Assembly: GCA_902798915.1 (NCBI GenBank)
Contig: CADBYM010000009.1
Coordinates: 1-64,000, forward strand
Reading direction: 5' to 3'
Origin: an uncultured Coriobacteriaceae bacterium
GTDB lineage: Bacteria > Actinomycetota > Coriobacteriia > Coriobacteriales > Atopobiaceae
DNA: 64,000 nt
Shown here: positions 1,518-63,537 of the stretch, one piece after another
Layout of the letters: the number at the start of each line of letters is the position of its first letter
How positions within the stretch are numbered: the stretch's first letter is position 1
Notes under the pieces: generated by a model
Database searches by the model: none
What the model was told of the DNA's origin: nothing
The model's input: only the letters and a program-made list of their open reading frames with translations
Position numbers and translations under genes: made by a program

Positions 1518-1937
1518 TTACACGCTGCGATCCTTGGTTGCTCCGCAGCGAGAGCACTTAAGGAGGTCGTACCCGCGAGTCCACGCCCAGAACATCCACC
1601 GCTCCTCGTGGCCGACCACTACCCAATCATGTAATGGACCACTGAGCTTGCCATAGCAATGATTGGCCGTATCGCGGTCTGATTCCCTTCGGTGTTTACG
1701 TAGCTCGAATTCACTGATGCGTTGATTATTCATGCCACCCACTAACGAATCAAGTTCGTGAGAGGTAAGCTCCTGGCCCTCGTTCATGACTTCTTCCAGC
1801 TCCTCGGTTGTGAAGTCGTAGCCCATCTCCGTCGCGATTGGCAATAGTTCCTTGGGCTCCAACTTCGCCGTGCGCTCGCGAAGCTCATTGTCTTCCATCA
1901 CTGCCTGGGCGAACTCCGCTGCTGATTCTTTGGACAT
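1518..1937 (-). CDS. Nif11-like leader peptide RiPP precursor
   Basis: The 139-aa product begins at ATG 1937 behind AAGGAGA. Residues 1-68 match the Nif11-derived leader type: an N-terminal FAQAVMEDNELRE helix, then LLPIATEMGYDFTTEELEE, ending in the double-glycine site ELDSLVGG. After the cleavage site come 71 residues with three cysteines (C94, C128, C131, the last two as CSRC) and many aromatic and basic residues. Such leaders direct ribosomally made peptides to modifying enzymes and a peptidase-transporter. No modifying enzyme lies next to it; the only candidate in the window is the YcaO protein near 61.7-63.5 kb. Base composition is more AT-rich than its surroundings. Confidence 0.8.
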   Translation of the reverse strand: MSKESAAEFAQAVMEDNELRERTAKLEPKELLPIATEMGYDFTTEELEEVMNEGQELTSHELDSLVGGMNNQRISEFELRKHRRESDRDTANHCYGKLSGPLHDWVVVGHEERWMFWAWTRGYDLLKCSRCGATKDRSV

Positions 1938-32619: not shown

Positions 32620-33033
32620 ATGGCAGTCAGCAACGAGCTGAGGCGCTTCGAGGCGGACCTTGCGGAGAACGAGGACCTCAGGGCGCAGGTGGAGGAGATC
32701 ATGCGTCGGATTGCGGAGTCCGGCGAGGCCAAGAGCGACGGCGAGGCGCTGTCGCAGGTAGCCTCCGAGCTCGGCTACGCGGTGGGCGCGGCTGACTTCG
32801 AGCGCGCCAGCGCGGAAGCGGAGAGCGAGGCGCCCGACCTCGATGACCTGGAGTCGGCTGCCGGCGGCATGTTTGGGATAGCAGCAGATGCGGAGGACGG
32901 GCACGAGGCATGGTGCCTCGGGACCTACTACTGCTTCACCGCATTGGTGCACGGCCACGACAAAGCGAAGAATCGCGCCTGTCTCTCTGACTATGTCACT
33001 GTGGGTAACGTCCTTAAGAGGGCATTTGGTTAG
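32620..33033 (+). CDS. Nif11-like leader peptide RiPP precursor
   Basis: ATG 32620 has GGGAGG 5 bases upstream; ATG 32599 does not. The 137-aa product has a Nif11-style leader (residues 1-83). It starts with LRRFEADLAENEDLRAQVEE, then ALSQVASELGYAV, and ends DLDDLESAAGG. The 54-residue tail has three cysteines (C99, C105, C121), in WCLGTYYCF and RACL, and ends LKRAFG. The gene has its own promoter and terminator and interrupts an otherwise housekeeping run between coaD and a coiled-coil gene. No modifying enzyme is adjacent. Confidence 0.78.
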   Translation: MAVSNELRRFEADLAENEDLRAQVEEIMRRIAESGEAKSDGEALSQVASELGYAVGAADFERASAEAESEAPDLDDLESAAGGMFGIAADAEDGHEAWCLGTYYCFTALVHGHDKAKNRACLSDYVTVGNVLKRAFG

Positions 33034-51173: not shown

Positions 51174-51449
51174 ATGAGCTACGAACTTAACCTTACCGAG
51201 GACCAGCAGCGTCGCATCGAGGAGGCGCAGACTCCCGAGGAGAAGGCGCACATCCTCGCTGGAGTTGCCGAGGCCATGCTTGAAGGGGCAGAGCTCTCTG
51301 ATGGGGACCTTGATGCTGTGAGCGGTGGTGTGACCAAACGGATGAGCGCGCAGGAGAAGCGCAAGGCGGAGGAGGCCGTTCAGGAGATACTGGAAGCGTA
51401 TGGCCCCGAAGTCGCGCAGATTGCCGCTGAGGAATTGGGACTCTGCTAA
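51174..51449 (+). CDS. Small GG-leader peptide, possible RiPP precursor
   Basis: The 91-aa product starts at ATG 51174 behind GAGAGGAA. The leader-like half (1-52) is helical and acidic and ends DGDLDAVSGG, the same type of double-glycine site as in the two Nif11 precursors. The following 39 residues are a charged helix with a single cysteine at the very C-terminus (ELGLC). The N-terminus is less Nif11-like than the other two. It follows the peptide ABC transporter, which is an importer type and not the usual GG-peptidase exporter. A non-RiPP small protein is also possible. Confidence 0.55.
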   Translation: MSYELNLTEDQQRRIEEAQTPEEKAHILAGVAEAMLEGAELSDGDLDAVSGGVTKRMSAQEKRKAEEAVQEILEAYGPEVAQIAAEELGLC

Positions 51450-57236: not shown

Positions 57237-57737
57237 ATGCGTACGTTGGCACCAGTGGACCTGTCGCTGATAAAGCCCGCGCTCGACACCTATGCCGATA
57301 CTCCCGGCAGCCTCATCACCATCTTGCAGGAGACGCAGGAGATTTATGGCTACCTGCCCATGGATGTGATGGAGCACATTGCGGAGCGTACCGGGACGCC
57401 CATCGCTACCATCGTGGGCGTGGCGACGTTTTATGCCCAGTTCAGGCTCGAGCCGGTGGGCAAGTACCTGATCATGCTGTGTCAGGGAACGGCTTGTCAC
57501 GTGAACGGATCGGAGCTCATCTCGGCGGCCATCTCCGACGAACTGGGCATCGAGAATGGCCAAACCACAGCAGATGGCCTGTTCTCTCTTGAGCACGTGG
57601 CTTGCTTGGGCTGCTGCTCTTTGTCGCCCGTCATGATGATCAACGGGCGCACCTACGGTCGCCTTACGCCCGACAAGGCTCGCAAGATCCTGCGTGGTCT
57701 GGCGGCCGAGGAGAATGAGGGAGGCGAGGCCAAATGA
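57237..57737 (+). CDS. NuoE-like [2Fe-2S] subunit of a flavoprotein complex
   Basis: ATG 57237 is behind GGAAAGGAG. The 166-aa protein is of the 24-kDa thioredoxin-like family. LCQGTACHVNGS and EHVACLGCCSLSP supply the four cysteines for a [2Fe-2S] cluster, and the helical N-terminus has LQETQEIYGYLP. It overlaps the NuoF-like gene by 4 bases. With the next two genes it forms a three-subunit complex; see the genes at 57.7 and 59.5 kb. Confidence 0.93.
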   Translation: MRTLAPVDLSLIKPALDTYADTPGSLITILQETQEIYGYLPMDVMEHIAERTGTPIATIVGVATFYAQFRLEPVGKYLIMLCQGTACHVNGSELISAAISDELGIENGQTTADGLFSLEHVACLGCCSLSPVMMINGRTYGRLTPDKARKILRGLAAEENEGGEAK

Positions 57738-59494
57738 GAATCGTCATCGGAGAGGGTAGCTGCGGGCTGGCCGCCGGGGCTGGGGCCGTCCACACCAAGC
57801 TTGAGGAGCTGCTTGCCACGGACAATCCCAAGGGTGTGGAGCTGGGCATCACCGGCTGCATCGGCATGTGCTTCCTCGAGCCCATCGTGGATGTGTACGA
57901 GGACGATGGTACGCTGCACCGTCTGGTCAGGGTGCAGGAGAAAGACGCCCAGGCCATCTACGACGCGGCCATGGGTGGCGACCTGGCGCTGCTCGACAAG
58001 CTGCTCATCTCACCCGAGGAAGAGCAGTTCCTCGCCAAGCAGACGCGCGTGGCCTTGCGCGACTGCGGCATCATCGACCCGGAGAGCATCGACGACTATC
58101 TCGCGCACGGTGGCTATCAGGCCATCACCAAGGTGTTGACTACTGGTATGAGCCAAGAGGATGTCATCCAGCAGATCGACATTGCCGGACTACGCGGCCG
58201 TGGCGGCGCGGGATTCTCCACGGCATTCAAATGGCGCGCCGCGCGTGACGCACAGGGCGACCAGAAGTACCTCATCTGCAATGCGGACGAGGGCGACCCC
58301 GGTGCCTTCATGGACCGCGCCGTCATCGAGGGCGACCCGCACAGCCTTATCGAGGGTATGCTCATCGGCGCCTACAGCATCGGTGCCAGTGAGGCCATCG
58401 TCTACGTGCGCGCCGAGTACCCGCTGGCCATCACCCGCCTGCGCAAGGCTATTGTGGACGCTACCGCACGTGGGTATCTCGGCGAGAACATCTGTGGGAG
58501 CGACTTCTCGTGCACGCTGCGCATCAAGGCGGGCGCAGGCGCGTTCGTGTGCGGTGAGGAGACGGCCCTTATCGAGTCGCTTGAGGGCAAGCGTGGCATG
58601 CCGCGCTTGAAGCCGCCCTTCCCGGCGCAGGCGGGCTACTGGCTCAAGCCTTCGAACATCAACAACGTGGAGACCTACGCGAACGTGGCATGGATCATCC
58701 AAAACGGTGGCGCAGCCTTCGCCGCCATGGGCACCGAGGGCTCCAAGGGAACCAAGGTGTTTGCGCTTTCCGGCAAGATTGCCCGTGGCGGCCTGGTAGA
58801 GGTTCCCATGGGCACCACGCTGCGCGAGGTCATCTTCGACATCGGCGGCGGCATCCGCGACAACAAGGAGTTCAAGGCCGTCCAGCTGGGCGGACCTTCC
58901 GGTGGCTGCGTACCTGCAAGCAAGCTCGACACCGTCATTGACTACAACGAGCTGTCTGCCACCGGCGCCATCATGGGTTCCGGCGGCATGGTGGTCATGG
59001 ACGAGACCACCTGCATGGTCAGCATGGCGCGCTTCTTCCTCGACTTCACCGCCAAGGAGAGCTGTGGCAAGTGCGTTCACTGCCGTCTGGGCACCAAGCG
59101 CATGCTGGAGATCCTCGACCGCATCGTGGCGGGCAAGGGCGAGCCGGGCGACATCGAGAAGCTCGAGGACCTGTGCTATGCCATCAAGGACGGCGCGCTC
59201 TGCGGTCTGGGGCAGACGGCCCCCAACCCGGTGCTCACCACCATCCGCTACTTCCGCGACGAGCTCGAGGCGCACATCGACGAGCGTCGCTGCCCTGCTG
59301 GCGAATGCCGTGAGCTCATCTCCTATTCCATCGACAAGTCCGTATGCATCGGCTGCACAGCCTGCGCACGGCAATGTCCCGTGGGTGCCATCTCCGGCGA
59401 GCGCAAGTCGCCGCATGAGATTGACCCGCAGCTGTGCATCAAGTGCGGCAATTGCAAGACTGCCTGCCGCTTCGGTGCGGTCCAGGTCGCGTAG
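57734..59494 (+). CDS. NuoF-like FMN/NAD(H)-binding subunit
   Basis: The 586-aa protein has an N-terminal thioredoxin-like part (EGSCGLAAGAG, TGCIGMC). The FMN/NAD domain has GRGGAGFSTAFKW, CNADEGDPGAFMDR and CGEETALIESLEG. The iron-sulfur motif is ESCGKCVHCRLG, and a C-terminal two-cluster ferredoxin has CIGCTACARQCPVGA and CIKCGNCKTACRFGA. This is the layout of HydB, HndC and Stn-type subunits, which pass electrons from or to NADH. The gene overlaps the NuoE-like gene and precedes a GltD-like fusion. Confidence 0.94.
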   Translation: MRIVIGEGSCGLAAGAGAVHTKLEELLATDNPKGVELGITGCIGMCFLEPIVDVYEDDGTLHRLVRVQEKDAQAIYDAAMGGDLALLDKLLISPEEEQFLAKQTRVALRDCGIIDPESIDDYLAHGGYQAITKVLTTGMSQEDVIQQIDIAGLRGRGGAGFSTAFKWRAARDAQGDQKYLICNADEGDPGAFMDRAVIEGDPHSLIEGMLIGAYSIGASEAIVYVRAEYPLAITRLRKAIVDATARGYLGENICGSDFSCTLRIKAGAGAFVCGEETALIESLEGKRGMPRLKPPFPAQAGYWLKPSNINNVETYANVAWIIQNGGAAFAAMGTEGSKGTKVFALSGKIARGGLVEVPMGTTLREVIFDIGGGIRDNKEFKAVQLGGPSGGCVPASKLDTVIDYNELSATGAIMGSGGMVVMDETTCMVSMARFFLDFTAKESCGKCVHCRLGTKRMLEILDRIVAGKGEPGDIEKLEDLCYAIKDGALCGLGQTAPNPVLTTIRYFRDELEAHIDERRCPAGECRELISYSIDKSVCIGCTACARQCPVGAISGERKSPHEIDPQLCIKCGNCKTACRFGAVQVA

Positions 59495-59512
59495 GGAAAG
59501 GGGGATCCGACT

Positions 59513-61567
59513 ATGTCCATCACATACACCATCGACGGCGTGAAGGTCGTGGCAGAGCCTTCCGATACCATTCTCACGTCGGCAACGCGGGCGGGGATAG
59601 AGATTCCCACCCTGTGCTTCGACAAGCGCACCGCCATCTACGGCGCCTGTGGCCTCTGTCTCGTTGAGGTGGAGGGCGTGCCCAAGCTTCTGCGCGCCTG
59701 CTCGGCGCGGCCGCAGGAGGGCTACGTGGTGCACCTGCATAGCAAGCGCGTGGATCGTGCGCGCAAGACGGCTCTGGAGCTGCTGCTCTCGGACCACACT
59801 GGCGACTGCCGCGGACCCTGCAAGCTCAACTGCCCAGCCATGACCGACTGCCAGAAGTACGTGGGCGAGATTCGCGGGGGTCGCTACAAGGACGCAGTCT
59901 CCACGATCTACGAGGCGTTCCCGTTGCCCGCATCCATCGGTCGCGTCTGCCCGCATCCCTGCGAGGACGCGTGCCGTCGCAAGATGGTCGAGGAGCCCAT
60001 CTCCATCGCGTTCCTCAAGGCCTTTGCCGCCGACAAGGTTGAGGCTGACGGCGATCCCTACGAAGTGGCGTGCGAGCCCAGCACTGGCAAGCGCGTGGCC
60101 ATTGTGGGTGGCGGCCCCGCCGGTCTCACGGCGGCCTACTTCCTGCGTCGCTACGGCCATGCGGTCACCATCTACGACAAGCAGCCCAAGCTGGGTGGCA
60201 TGCTGCGCTACGGCATCCCCGAGTATCGCCTGCCCAAGGCCGTGCTCGACCGCGAGATCGAAATCATCCTGAACGCGGGCGTTGAGGTGCACACCAACAC
60301 CCAGTTGGGGCGCGACATCGACTTTAACGATCTGCGCGAGCGCTATGATGCCGTGCTGCTTGCCCTTGGTGCCTGGAGGTCCATGTCCATGCGCGTGCCG
60401 GGCGAGGACTTGGAAGGCGTGTTTGGCGGCATTGACTTCCTGGAGCGATTGGGCTTGGGCGAGCGCCCCGTGCTGGGCGAGCGCGTGGCTGTGTGTGGTG
60501 GCGGCAACACCGCCATGGACTGCTGCCGCACCGCCGTGCGCCTGGGTGCCAAGGAAGTCTACGTGGTGTACCGGCGTACGCGCAACGAGATGCCCGCGGC
60601 CGACATCGAGATCGAAGAGGCCGAGGAAGAGGGCGTCACCTTCAAGTTCCTCACCAACCCCATCGAGTTCTACGGCGAGGATGGGCATGTGACCGGCATG
60701 AAGCTGCAGGTCATGGAGCTGGGCGAGCCCGATGCCTCCGGACGTCGTCGTCCGGTTCCCGTGGAGGGTGCCACCGAGGACATCGCCATCGACAACGTGC
60801 TCATGGCCATCGGTCAGGGCGCCAACTGCGAGGGCGTCGACTCGGACCTGCTTACGCAGCGCGGCACCATCGCCTGCGACGAGCTCACCTTCCGCACGAG
60901 CATCGAGAACGTGTTTGCGGCGGGTGACGTGACCAACCGTGGCGCCGGCATCGCCATCCAGGCCATCGCCGAGGCGCAGAAGGCTGCCCTGTGCATCAAC
61001 AACTACCTTGAGGGCGATGAGGTGCGTGCCCGCGTCCCGTACTTCGTCGAACAGGAGAAGACACCTGAGGACTTCGAGGATGAGCCGAAGCAGAAGCGCG
61101 AGAAGATGCCCGGACTCACGCCCGAGCAGCGTCGCGACAACTTCGAACCCATCTACTTCGGATTCACTGAGGAGCAAGCTCGTCGCGAGGCGTCGAGGTG
61201 CCTGGAGTGCGGCTGCCATGACTACTACGACTGCCGCCTCATCCGCTATGCCAACGCCTTCGACATCGATCCCGAGCACTTTGCGGGCGAGATGCACAAG
61301 CGCGAGGACAAGCCCGTGGTCTCTGAGGTTATCATGCACAATCCGGACAAGTGCGTCCTCTGCGGTTTGTGTTATCGCATCTGCGACCAGGAGGTGGGCA
61401 AGACGTTCCTCGGCCTGTACAACCGCGGCTTCTCAACCGTGGTCAACCCGATGGTACCAGACGAGGCGCGCGCCTTCTGTGCCAGCTGCCTCAAGTGCGT
61501 GGAAGCATGTCCCACCGGTGCCATGCAGAGCATCCCCGCATGTGAGCGCGTGACTCAGATTCTGTAG
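59513..61567 (+). CDS. NuoG-N/GltD-like FAD oxidoreductase fusion with ferredoxin domains
   Basis: The 684-aa protein begins with a [2Fe-2S] ferredoxin (CFDKRTAIYGACGLCLVEVEG). HTGDCRGPCKLNCPA and RVCPHPCEDACRR follow. A GltD-like domain comes next with FAD motif VAIVGGGPAGLTAAYF and NAD(P) motif VAVCGGGNTAMDCC. The C-terminus has two [4Fe-4S] sites (CVLCGLCYRIC, CASCLKCVEACPTG). No hydrogenase H-cluster motif is present. NuoE, NuoF and this fusion match in size and order the StnABC (Sporomusa-type Nfn) transhydrogenase, which couples NADH, NADPH and ferredoxin. That assignment is an inference. Confidence 0.88.
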   Translation: MSITYTIDGVKVVAEPSDTILTSATRAGIEIPTLCFDKRTAIYGACGLCLVEVEGVPKLLRACSARPQEGYVVHLHSKRVDRARKTALELLLSDHTGDCRGPCKLNCPAMTDCQKYVGEIRGGRYKDAVSTIYEAFPLPASIGRVCPHPCEDACRRKMVEEPISIAFLKAFAADKVEADGDPYEVACEPSTGKRVAIVGGGPAGLTAAYFLRRYGHAVTIYDKQPKLGGMLRYGIPEYRLPKAVLDREIEIILNAGVEVHTNTQLGRDIDFNDLRERYDAVLLALGAWRSMSMRVPGEDLEGVFGGIDFLERLGLGERPVLGERVAVCGGGNTAMDCCRTAVRLGAKEVYVVYRRTRNEMPAADIEIEEAEEEGVTFKFLTNPIEFYGEDGHVTGMKLQVMELGEPDASGRRRPVPVEGATEDIAIDNVLMAIGQGANCEGVDSDLLTQRGTIACDELTFRTSIENVFAAGDVTNRGAGIAIQAIAEAQKAALCINNYLEGDEVRARVPYFVEQEKTPEDFEDEPKQKREKMPGLTPEQRRDNFEPIYFGFTEEQARREASRCLECGCHDYYDCRLIRYANAFDIDPEHFAGEMHKREDKPVVSEVIMHNPDKCVLCGLCYRICDQEVGKTFLGLYNRGFSTVVNPMVPDEARAFCASCLKCVEACPTGAMQSIPACERVTQIL

Positions 61568-61587
61568 CAGTCGCAATGAGAGCATGG

Positions 61588-61625
61588 GCAGTCCCCCAGC
61601 GACGAATCCGCCGCTGGGGGACTGT
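61588..61625 (+). terminator. Terminator after the flavoprotein operon
   Basis: CAGTCCCCCAGCG (61589-61601) pairs perfectly with CGCTGGGGGACTG (61612-61624), followed by TCTC. Confidence 0.75.
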
Positions 61626-61728
61626 CTCGCAACGGGAGCGTGACAACGGGGACGGAGCGTGTCGCCACGTATTCTGATGCGGGAGTCGCACGCAGCAAGG
61701 ACAAAAGCCGACTAAGGGGGCCCGAACC

Positions 61729-63537
61729 GTGAGCAAGGACTACTCCAAGCACAAGGAGCGCGACCCGAAGGATACGGTCGCCGTCATACGCGACATCCTC
61801 GAGCGTGCGGGCGTGGGCACAGAGCTGCGATGGTGCAAACGCGACTGTGAGGGACTGTACTCGAACTACGTGAGTATTCCGGGGACGATGCTGACGGTGA
61901 GCGGCAAGGGGACCACCGAGGACTACGCCTGCGCGAGCGGCTATGCCGAGCTCATTGAGCGTATTCAGAACGGCATCCTCGCCCTGTACCCGCCCGACGG
62001 TCCAGAGACGTACGCAGCCAACGGCTTTTTGTCGGCGCCTGATGAGCGGTACTCACCTGCGGAGAGCATCGTCGCACGGCATTGTTCCGTGCTGGAGGCT
62101 TGGCTCGCGTCGCTGGGTGTCACCACCGATGAGGAGCGCCTTTCATTGTTCGAACTGTTTCCCAAATTGCGCTACGAACGCGGGGACGGAGCGGTCGCGG
62201 AGGTTCCCTTCGCCGACCCTGTGGGTGGGGAAGTGGTGTGGCTTCCCGCCGCTCTGGTTGCCTATAGCTGTGGCTCGAATGGCATGGCTGCTGGCAACAC
62301 TGCCGAGGAGGCCCTCGTCCAGGGACTCTCCGAGGTGCTCGAGCGCTTCGTGGCTCGCAAGGTCCTGCGTGGGGAGGCAATCCCGCCGCGGATTCCTCGC
62401 AGGGTGTTGCAGGACTGTGGCGTGTCCAGCCTCATCGCACGCATCGAGAGCGGGGGACGCTACGAGGTCCGCGTGAATGACGCTTCGCTCGGCCGTGGCT
62501 ACCCGGTGGTCATGACGACGCTGGTGGACCGCCAGCGCGCGACCTTCGGCGTGAGGTTTGGCGCGCATCCGTCGCTGCCCATCGCCGTCGAACGCACGCT
62601 GACCGAAGCCTTTCAGGGCCGAAGCATTCAGGTGTGTACAGACATGAATCGCTTTGCAAGTCTGCAGAGAGCCGCGGCCATCGACAACGTGACGAGCATG
62701 TTCACGAGCGGCCTTGGCTCCTTGCCCTTTGTTGCTCTCTCTGGCGAGGCCGGATGGGATGTCGTTCCTTGGCCCTCGTGGGAAGGGGCGGCAAACGGCG
62801 AGATGCTGGGCTTCATGCTGGCACTGTTGCTTAGGGATGGATACCGTCCCCTTGTGCGCGACGTGTCGCATCTGGGGTTCCCGTCCTATCAGATCGTCGT
62901 GCCGGGGATGAGCGATGTGTTCGCACCGCACATCGGTCTGTGCGAGCGCCTTGCTGCCAAGCGGCAGGCGAAGCGTGCGCTCAAAGACTTCCCGCTCTTG
63001 TCTCCTGAAGGGCAGGGGCATCTCCTTGAGCTCGAGCCCTCGGACCTCGTACATACGGCCCCGAGCATGTTCGGCTTACCCATCACGGATGGGAGGATGC
63101 ATCCCTGCCGCGTCTTTGGGTTCTTACATCTCGCGCGCGGGGAGCATGCGGCAGCGCAGAGGTGCTTCGAGACCTTCTCGTCGCTCACCGGGGAGATAGG
63201 CCAGCGACACTGGCGGGCGATGGCGTGCTATGCCGATTGTCGCGCGAAGGGGCTCGGCCACGAGGAGGCCATGCAAATCGTGTGCTTCCTCAACCCTCCT
63301 GACGTTGCCTGGCGCGTTGGGCGCGAGGCCGTAGATGCCAGTGAGAATCCCGGCAGGTTGTTCCCTCAGATGAGGTGCCCCGACTGCACGCATTGCGAGC
63401 TTCTCGCCTGCGGCGGATGTGCGGGACTCGCCCACACGAACGAGGTCCTCAGGAAGATTGCACGTGCGATGCAGTGCACTTCGGTGACGCAGGAGTCGGT
63501 GTTGAGCCTTTTGCAGGATGGTCTTTGTCGTCGATAA
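61729..63537 (+). CDS. YcaO-domain protein, possible RiPP-modifying enzyme
   Basis: The 602-aa protein starts at GTG 61729. It carries the YcaO patterns CASGYAELIERIQNG, AEEALVQGLSEVLERFVARKV and VERTLTEAFQGR, which bind ATP and Mg. The C-terminus has CPDCTHC (C550, C553, C556) and CGGC (C561, C564), a metal or cluster site. YcaO enzymes cyclise Cys/Ser/Thr in peptides, or make thioamides, often with an E1-like or TfuA partner. No partner lies nearby; the GG-leader precursors at 1.5, 32.6 and 51.2 kb are the only substrates visible. A housekeeping YcaO role is the alternative. Confidence 0.82.
   Translation: MSKDYSKHKERDPKDTVAVIRDILERAGVGTELRWCKRDCEGLYSNYVSIPGTMLTVSGKGTTEDYACASGYAELIERIQNGILALYPPDGPETYAANGFLSAPDERYSPAESIVARHCSVLEAWLASLGVTTDEERLSLFELFPKLRYERGDGAVAEVPFADPVGGEVVWLPAALVAYSCGSNGMAAGNTAEEALVQGLSEVLERFVARKVLRGEAIPPRIPRRVLQDCGVSSLIARIESGGRYEVRVNDASLGRGYPVVMTTLVDRQRATFGVRFGAHPSLPIAVERTLTEAFQGRSIQVCTDMNRFASLQRAAAIDNVTSMFTSGLGSLPFVALSGEAGWDVVPWPSWEGAANGEMLGFMLALLLRDGYRPLVRDVSHLGFPSYQIVVPGMSDVFAPHIGLCERLAAKRQAKRALKDFPLLSPEGQGHLLELEPSDLVHTAPSMFGLPITDGRMHPCRVFGFLHLARGEHAAAQRCFETFSSLTGEIGQRHWRAMACYADCRAKGLGHEEAMQIVCFLNPPDVAWRVGREAVDASENPGRLFPQMRCPDCTHCELLACGGCAGLAHTNEVLRKIARAMQCTSVTQESVLSLLQDGLCRR

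Follow-up and report, generated by a model that had tools for sequence, protein, structure and literature searches.

A lah-type stand-alone YcaO and scattered GG-leader peptides in the genome of an uncultured Atopobiaceae bacterium

Analysis of the window, which is the whole stretch of 64,000 nucleotides examined here, showed a YcaO gene near its right end and three open reading frames for GG-leader peptides upstream of it. The genes and features are given below.

1518 to 1937, minus strand, ORF opening at 2015: Nif11-leader peptide (TIGR03798 46.8 bits, cut-off 32.3, E 2.6e-12; domain from residue 27)
32620 to 33033, plus strand: Nif11-like GG peptide (Pfam Nif11 E 0.0017; 16.3 bits, under the cut-off)
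51174 to 51449, plus strand: GG-leader peptide with a long tail (GG leader; no family match over the cut-off)
61586 to 61627, plus strand: strong hairpin in the gap that separates YcaO from the oxidoreductase gene upstream (-39.3 kcal/mol, z -4.7)
61729 to 63537, plus strand: YcaO, lah-type, stand-alone, 602 aa, GTG start (ORF; Pfam YcaO E 2.1e-50)
61900 to 62913, plus strand: YcaO catalytic/ATP-binding domain (domain limits; residue comparison with E. coli YcaO)
62938 to 63348, plus strand: helical C-terminal region, positioned like the C-terminal domain of E. coli YcaO (AF2 model; full-length Foldseek alignment)
63376 to 63420, plus strand: cysteine motif C-x2-C-x2-C-x7-C (C550, C553, C556 and C564, all four invariant in an eight-member family alignment)

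Genes were called with a simple codon model. The Pfam YcaO match covered residues 58-395 of the window protein, which keeps the equivalents of E. coli K9, E75, E78, N187, E191, E199, E202, R203, R286 and E290 and has T in place of the S of E. coli YcaO at residue 16. The closest solved structure, both by sequence and by predicted fold, was E. coli YcaO, and the AF2 model of the window protein (mean pLDDT 91.8) matched it (4q86) as a full-length fold in Foldseek (E 5e-29). Judged by its residues, the window YcaO is a real, full-length and catalytically intact enzyme. The cysteine motif, conserved throughout the lah-type clade described below and missing in E. coli YcaO, is a probable metal or Fe-S site; the preliminary description of this DNA had likewise reported a YcaO with a C-terminal cysteine-rich site. 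The dN/dS of the gene against four orthologues was about 0.16-0.23, so the gene is maintained under purifying selection, and it evolves about four times faster than the housekeeping neighbour genes (0.02-0.06).

Both contig ends lie at least 25 kb away from the window YcaO, and the window contained no classical cluster, as had been described. The hairpin at 61586 to 61627 has no T-tail and was absent from the listing of a simple terminator scan; its position and stability suggest that YcaO forms a separate transcription unit. The upstream NADH-dependent oxidoreductase genes (57237-61567) were considered as partners of YcaO and rejected, since this linkage occurred among the orthologues in G014 only and the strong hairpin lies between. 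The orthologues (70-86% identity) were found in a single-gene setting with shifting neighbours. No GG precursor was found within 10 kb of the window YcaO, the nearest one being 10.3 kb upstream with a distribution independent of YcaO, and a precursor lay nearby in one of the four closest orthologues (L045, two precursors). A guessed interspersed repeat motif was searched for and gave no match.

The three GG-leader precursors that had been described as spread over 50 kb all exist as ORFs, and the one at 1518-2015 alone scored above a curated cut-off. The family of the peptide at 51174-51449 (relatives include L026:7595-7987, L032:6633-7031 and L033:5911-6294) has a long, conserved tail with motifs like SEMRAWMHRELDG; this tail is not hypervariable, which is unusual for the core of a RiPP.

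When 84,980 species genomes were scanned with a profile, 80 related YcaO loci were obtained, and a tree was built from 66 YcaOs. The window YcaO grouped with good support among Cys-tailed YcaOs from Atopobiaceae and Clostridia; the starred clades nested there, of 18-20 rows, also contained the YcaOs that belong to the lah lanthipeptide cluster in Lachnospiraceae bacterium C6A11 (locus L057), the published system of LahA/LahT (PMC6363468) and LahSB (PMC11285071). The Pseudomonadota and E. coli uL16-type YcaOs stood apart in a clade of their own (100*). E. coli YcaO alone thioamidates the ribosomal protein uL16, without TfuA, and its group is strongly acidic (PMC13063428). The pI was 5.94 for the window YcaO and 4.38 for E. 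coli YcaO, and the window protein scored 175.6 bits with NF040716 (uL16-modifying YcaO, cut-off 700) and 44.2 bits with TIGR03604 (TOMM cyclodehydratase D protein, cut-off 219.25), which is below the cut-off in both cases. The phylogeny that the preliminary description had called for thus placed the window YcaO with YcaOs of RiPP clusters and not with ribosomal or housekeeping ones, and the outcome named there as refuting did not occur; the non-acidic pI and the score below the NF040716 cut-off agree with this placement.

The Clostridia members of this clade were found in RiPP clusters with Nif11/GG precursors, LanM, a radical SAM protein, flavoproteins, C39 exporters and a SAM methyltransferase. 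With a leader profile trained on peptides of the window's own genome only, 10 of the 18 lah-type YcaO loci were seen to have a GG precursor no more than 10 kb away, against none of the 22 Pseudomonadota loci (p 5e-5); counted per genome, the figures were 9/15 and 0/22, respectively (p 4e-5). Homologues of LahSB repeatedly adjoin lah-type YcaOs, and three proteins of Clostridia are natural fusions in which a LahSB-like methyltransferase and a YcaO form one chain (L078:7571-10360, L085:7251-9962 and L086:8969-11695). The RiPP association of the clade of the window YcaO is well supported by gene neighbourhood, because its Clostridia members are clustered with Nif11/GG precursors, LanM and LahSB-type methyltransferases and because of the three fusions. 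The cores of the lah-type clusters are Ala-rich with few Cys, and in core sets collected by hand 15/17 lah-type cores ended in a small residue followed by Ile, Val or Leu, against 0/15 cores near the protein X described below. Such features would suit a C-terminal methyltransferase and a backbone-modifying YcaO.

The named relatives within the genus are ruminant Atopobiaceae MAGs. The genome that holds the window contained two YcaOs, five LanM on four contigs and seven C39 exporters. A search of the same genome for TfuA gave none, in agreement with the missing TfuA partner of the preliminary description, and TfuA-dependent thioamidation was rejected for this reason. Profile searches found 11 members of the 51174 family (E below 0.001), 19 GG-leader loci with the short-leader profile and 27 with the lah-leader profile; these sets overlap and are profile counts from draft genomes rather than a full listing of all ORFs. 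The recurrence of such peptides goes beyond chance. Next to a LahSB homologue (3.6e-116 to PDB 6UAK) lies the second YcaO (contig C52; L029:8244-11029), whose ATP site is degenerate (E75R, E78A, N187T, E290Q); it may serve as a partner without catalysis of its own or may be in decay. A general pairing of an active with an inactive YcaO was rejected for Clostridia, where both copies are intact; the C52 copy alone is degenerate. The LanM nearest the lah LanM in this genome lies on contig C40 amid lah-type precursors and exporters, and LahSB and LanM both occur on contigs other than that of the window YcaO. All component types of lah occur in this genome, and the lah set is therefore present but scattered.

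Genes for PP2C/SpoIIE-type phosphatases recur by LanM, YcaO or precursor genes in Atopobiaceae and Clostridia, several with an adjoining STAS protein (L029:11066-13024, L142:18069-19999, L143:9911-11554, L049:4579-6174 and L051:19053-21074), which suggests a partner-switching control of the peptides.

Co-distribution was analysed in 60 relatives, and genomes with two or more short-leader GG peptides (24/60) were taken as GG-positive. YcaO was present in 5 of the about 23-24 GG-peptide genomes, and all YcaO-bearing genomes (5/5) had GG peptides. Within the genus YcaO was patchy (4/16 genomes) and independent of the 51174-type peptide (p 0.6), which occurred in four members without YcaO and was missing from three YcaO-bearing genomes; co-distribution thus gave no support to 51174-type peptides as YcaO substrates, and the earlier grouping of the three window peptides and YcaO as one set was not confirmed. 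No peptide family that tracks the window YcaO was identified among the relatives. LanM occurred in 12 of the 60 genomes and LahSB in the window's own genome only. In the other YcaO-bearing relatives LahSB was not found, and LahSB/LanM were absent or partial there; G006 had two YcaOs and no LanM. The protein X was present in 23 genomes, all of them GG-positive (23/23 against 1/37, p 1e-15, counted as genomes and not as independent events, in genera that span several families). X is therefore the more likely constant enzyme partner of the GG peptides, rather than YcaO. Of the dispersed RiPP system put forward in the preliminary description, the scattered GG-leader peptides hold genome-wide (19-27 loci), and YcaO as the constant enzyme or hub is not supported, given the few GG genomes that carry it, the independent 51174-type peptide and the peptides being tracked by X instead.

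X is an unannotated protein of about 335 aa to which neither Pfam nor NCBIfam gave a name. Its AF2 model (pLDDT 81.5) matched ABBA aromatic prenyltransferases in all of the 50 Foldseek matches listed (best E 1.2e-6), and in a fold comparison CymD scored Z 17.1 and the cyanobactin enzyme PatF 14.2. Residues E61, Y169, R176, R182, K309-x-K/R/Y/H311 and K321-x-Y323 were 97-100% conserved in 35 sequences and may include the basic and Tyr residues that bind the diphosphate on the strands of such enzymes. X is accordingly described here as a predicted ABBA prenyltransferase-like protein. Members of the family include the following.

L040:6518-7561: X family member
L039:9397-10449: X family member
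L027:7392-8402: X family member
L142:6764-7759: X family member
L142:11364-12359: X family member
L203:11354-13377: X family member

The genes for X mostly adjoin GG peptides, often as tandem pairs and sometimes followed by LanM. Trp was found within the first five core residues of 14/15 near-X cores and 2/17 lah-type cores, in the same hand-collected sets; precursor cores adjoining X include DSWWCPTATSCPNYEVMR and SWYNCMNETW. YcaO adjoins X in 2/7 Atopobiaceae loci (p ~7e-4), together with a GG precursor at G004:C106 and with two LanM at G016:C74. Cyanobacteria are known to have an ABBA prenyltransferase, MppC, that modifies a Nif11 lanthipeptide precursor in a leader-dependent manner (PMC12715784), and the mechanism proposed for X therefore has a precedent. 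X resembles MppC in the predicted ABBA fold, the Nif11-type leader and the proposed Trp target (the activity of X being predicted from its fold), and differs from it in having no Pfam or NCBIfam match, in occurring in Coriobacteriia and in its frequent tandem pairs (PMC12715784). The family and its setting appear to be new.

Two further observations were made on X loci. One tandem X pair looks damaged (G000:C45:25723-27644; L026:9871-12257), with an in-frame stop in one copy and an unrelated N-terminal extension in the other. A near-identical GG peptide with the core DS(W/F)WCPTATSCPNYE(V/I)MR lies by X in five genomes of two genera (L203:10986-11177, L205:1133-1324, L208:3700-3891, L209:197-388 and L210:1453-1644), unlike the usual variable RiPP core; in a sixth, L206, this core occurs within a longer gene call.

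On balance, the window YcaO is probably an active member of the lah-type clade that has become detached from its cluster. As an accessory enzyme it would modify, in trans, the backbone of one or a few scattered GG peptides, most likely by TfuA-independent thioamidation. From clade, residues and gene context, we infer the trans action, the substrate, the chemistry and the role of the cysteine site as follows. The substrates of the clade would be Nif11/GG-leader RiPP precursors; the window YcaO, no longer part of its cluster and expressed on its own, would bind one or a few of the dispersed GG precursors in trans and use ATP to phosphorylate and so activate a backbone amide, a thioamide rather than an azoline would be installed, a C39 transporter would then cleave at GG and export the product, and the Cys4 tail would serve as a structural metal site. 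TfuA-free thioamidation is taken as the most likely chemistry because E. coli YcaO, the closest relative with known biochemistry, needs no partner for it, and because the cores of lah-type clusters are rich in Ala and poor in Cys.

The main alternative concerns the chemistry. A stand-alone YcaO forming azolines or azoles on GG peptides by cyclodehydration of Cys, Ser or Thr, as for bottromycin and klebsazolicin, would accord with the known stand-alone azoline-forming YcaOs (PMC4603692) and with the Cys in many GG cores of the genus; it is nevertheless unlikely, since there is no SagD-type score (44 bits against a cut-off of 219), the core QDYWDAAAQATADPRV adjacent to a YcaO has no Cys or Ser, and lah-type cores are poor in Cys. 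A quite improbable alternative is a domesticated gene that left a lah-type cluster and now modifies a non-RiPP protein. The single-gene orthologues with changing neighbours, the purifying selection at 70-86% identity and the genomes without LahSB or LanM would all fit such a gene, but its dN/dS is about four times that of housekeeping neighbours and YcaO occurs solely in GG-peptide genomes (5/5).

The two remaining alternatives are very unlikely. That a single YcaO modifies the entire scattered GG-peptide set, in the manner of ProcM and the prochlorosins, draws on a genome that holds one intact YcaO alongside numerous scattered GG peptides; it is opposed by the minority of GG-peptide genomes that have YcaO, by the independence of YcaO and the 51174-type peptide, and by X, which tracks the peptides in 23/23 genomes. 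A housekeeping YcaO that thioamidates uL16 as in E. coli has in its favour that the nearest solved structure is that of the TfuA-free E. coli enzyme (PMC13063428), and was rejected on the tree, the non-acidic pI, the curated score (175 bits against 700) and the patchy distribution, with the RiPP context of its own clade also speaking against it.

More tentatively, the Atopobiaceae of the ruminant gut may possess a chromosome-wide combinatorial RiPP network, in which dozens of single, scattered GG-leader peptides would have as constant partner undescribed ABBA-fold prenyltransferases acting on the Trp at the core start, while LanM, radical SAM proteins, YcaO and C39 exporters would be exchangeable trans modules; the window YcaO would be one such module, possibly heteromeric with the degenerate YcaO beside LahSB. 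If these proposals are true, genome mining based on clusters misses most chemistry of this kind, because enzymes and peptides are encoded apart, and the function of lah-type YcaOs reaches beyond compact clusters. They would also offer a TfuA-free YcaO for tests of peptide backbone thioamidation and extend the known peptide prenyltransferases by a family from outside the cyanobacteria, in ruminant-gut Actinomycetota.

Comparison with known systems showed that the window's genome shares with the lah cluster the YcaO clade and Cys4 tail, Nif11 GG leaders, LanM, the LahSB methyltransferase and a C39 exporter (PMC6363468, PMC11285071). It differs in that its genes are spread over many contigs, with the window YcaO alone and LahSB beside the degenerate YcaO, and its own cores do not have the small-residue-[I/V] tail of the Clostridial lah-type cores. 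The window YcaO resembles E. coli YcaO in the full-length fold, all ATP-site residues and the lack of TfuA (PMC13063428), while it belongs to a separate clade and has the Cys motif, and E. coli YcaO has an acidic pI, a ribosomal substrate and no small-ORF context. Heterocycloanthracin-type systems likewise have a YcaO enzyme whose precursors are distally encoded; they use a recognisable azoline-forming cyclodehydratase, whereas the window YcaO does not score as one (PMC4603692). The dehydrazoles, hybrids of LanM and YcaO, likewise combine both enzymes in one RiPP pathway, but with other YcaO and LanM types, NHLP leaders and compact clusters with a dehydrogenase (PMC10676384). The prochlorosin/Nif11 systems of Synechococcus that have a YcaO share scattered Nif11 GG precursors, LanM and an occasional YcaO; their constant enzyme is one LanM, and they carry a cyanobactin-type YcaO with SagB, whereas in the present case a lah-type YcaO occurs, with a predicted prenyltransferase as the constant partner (PMC10783134).
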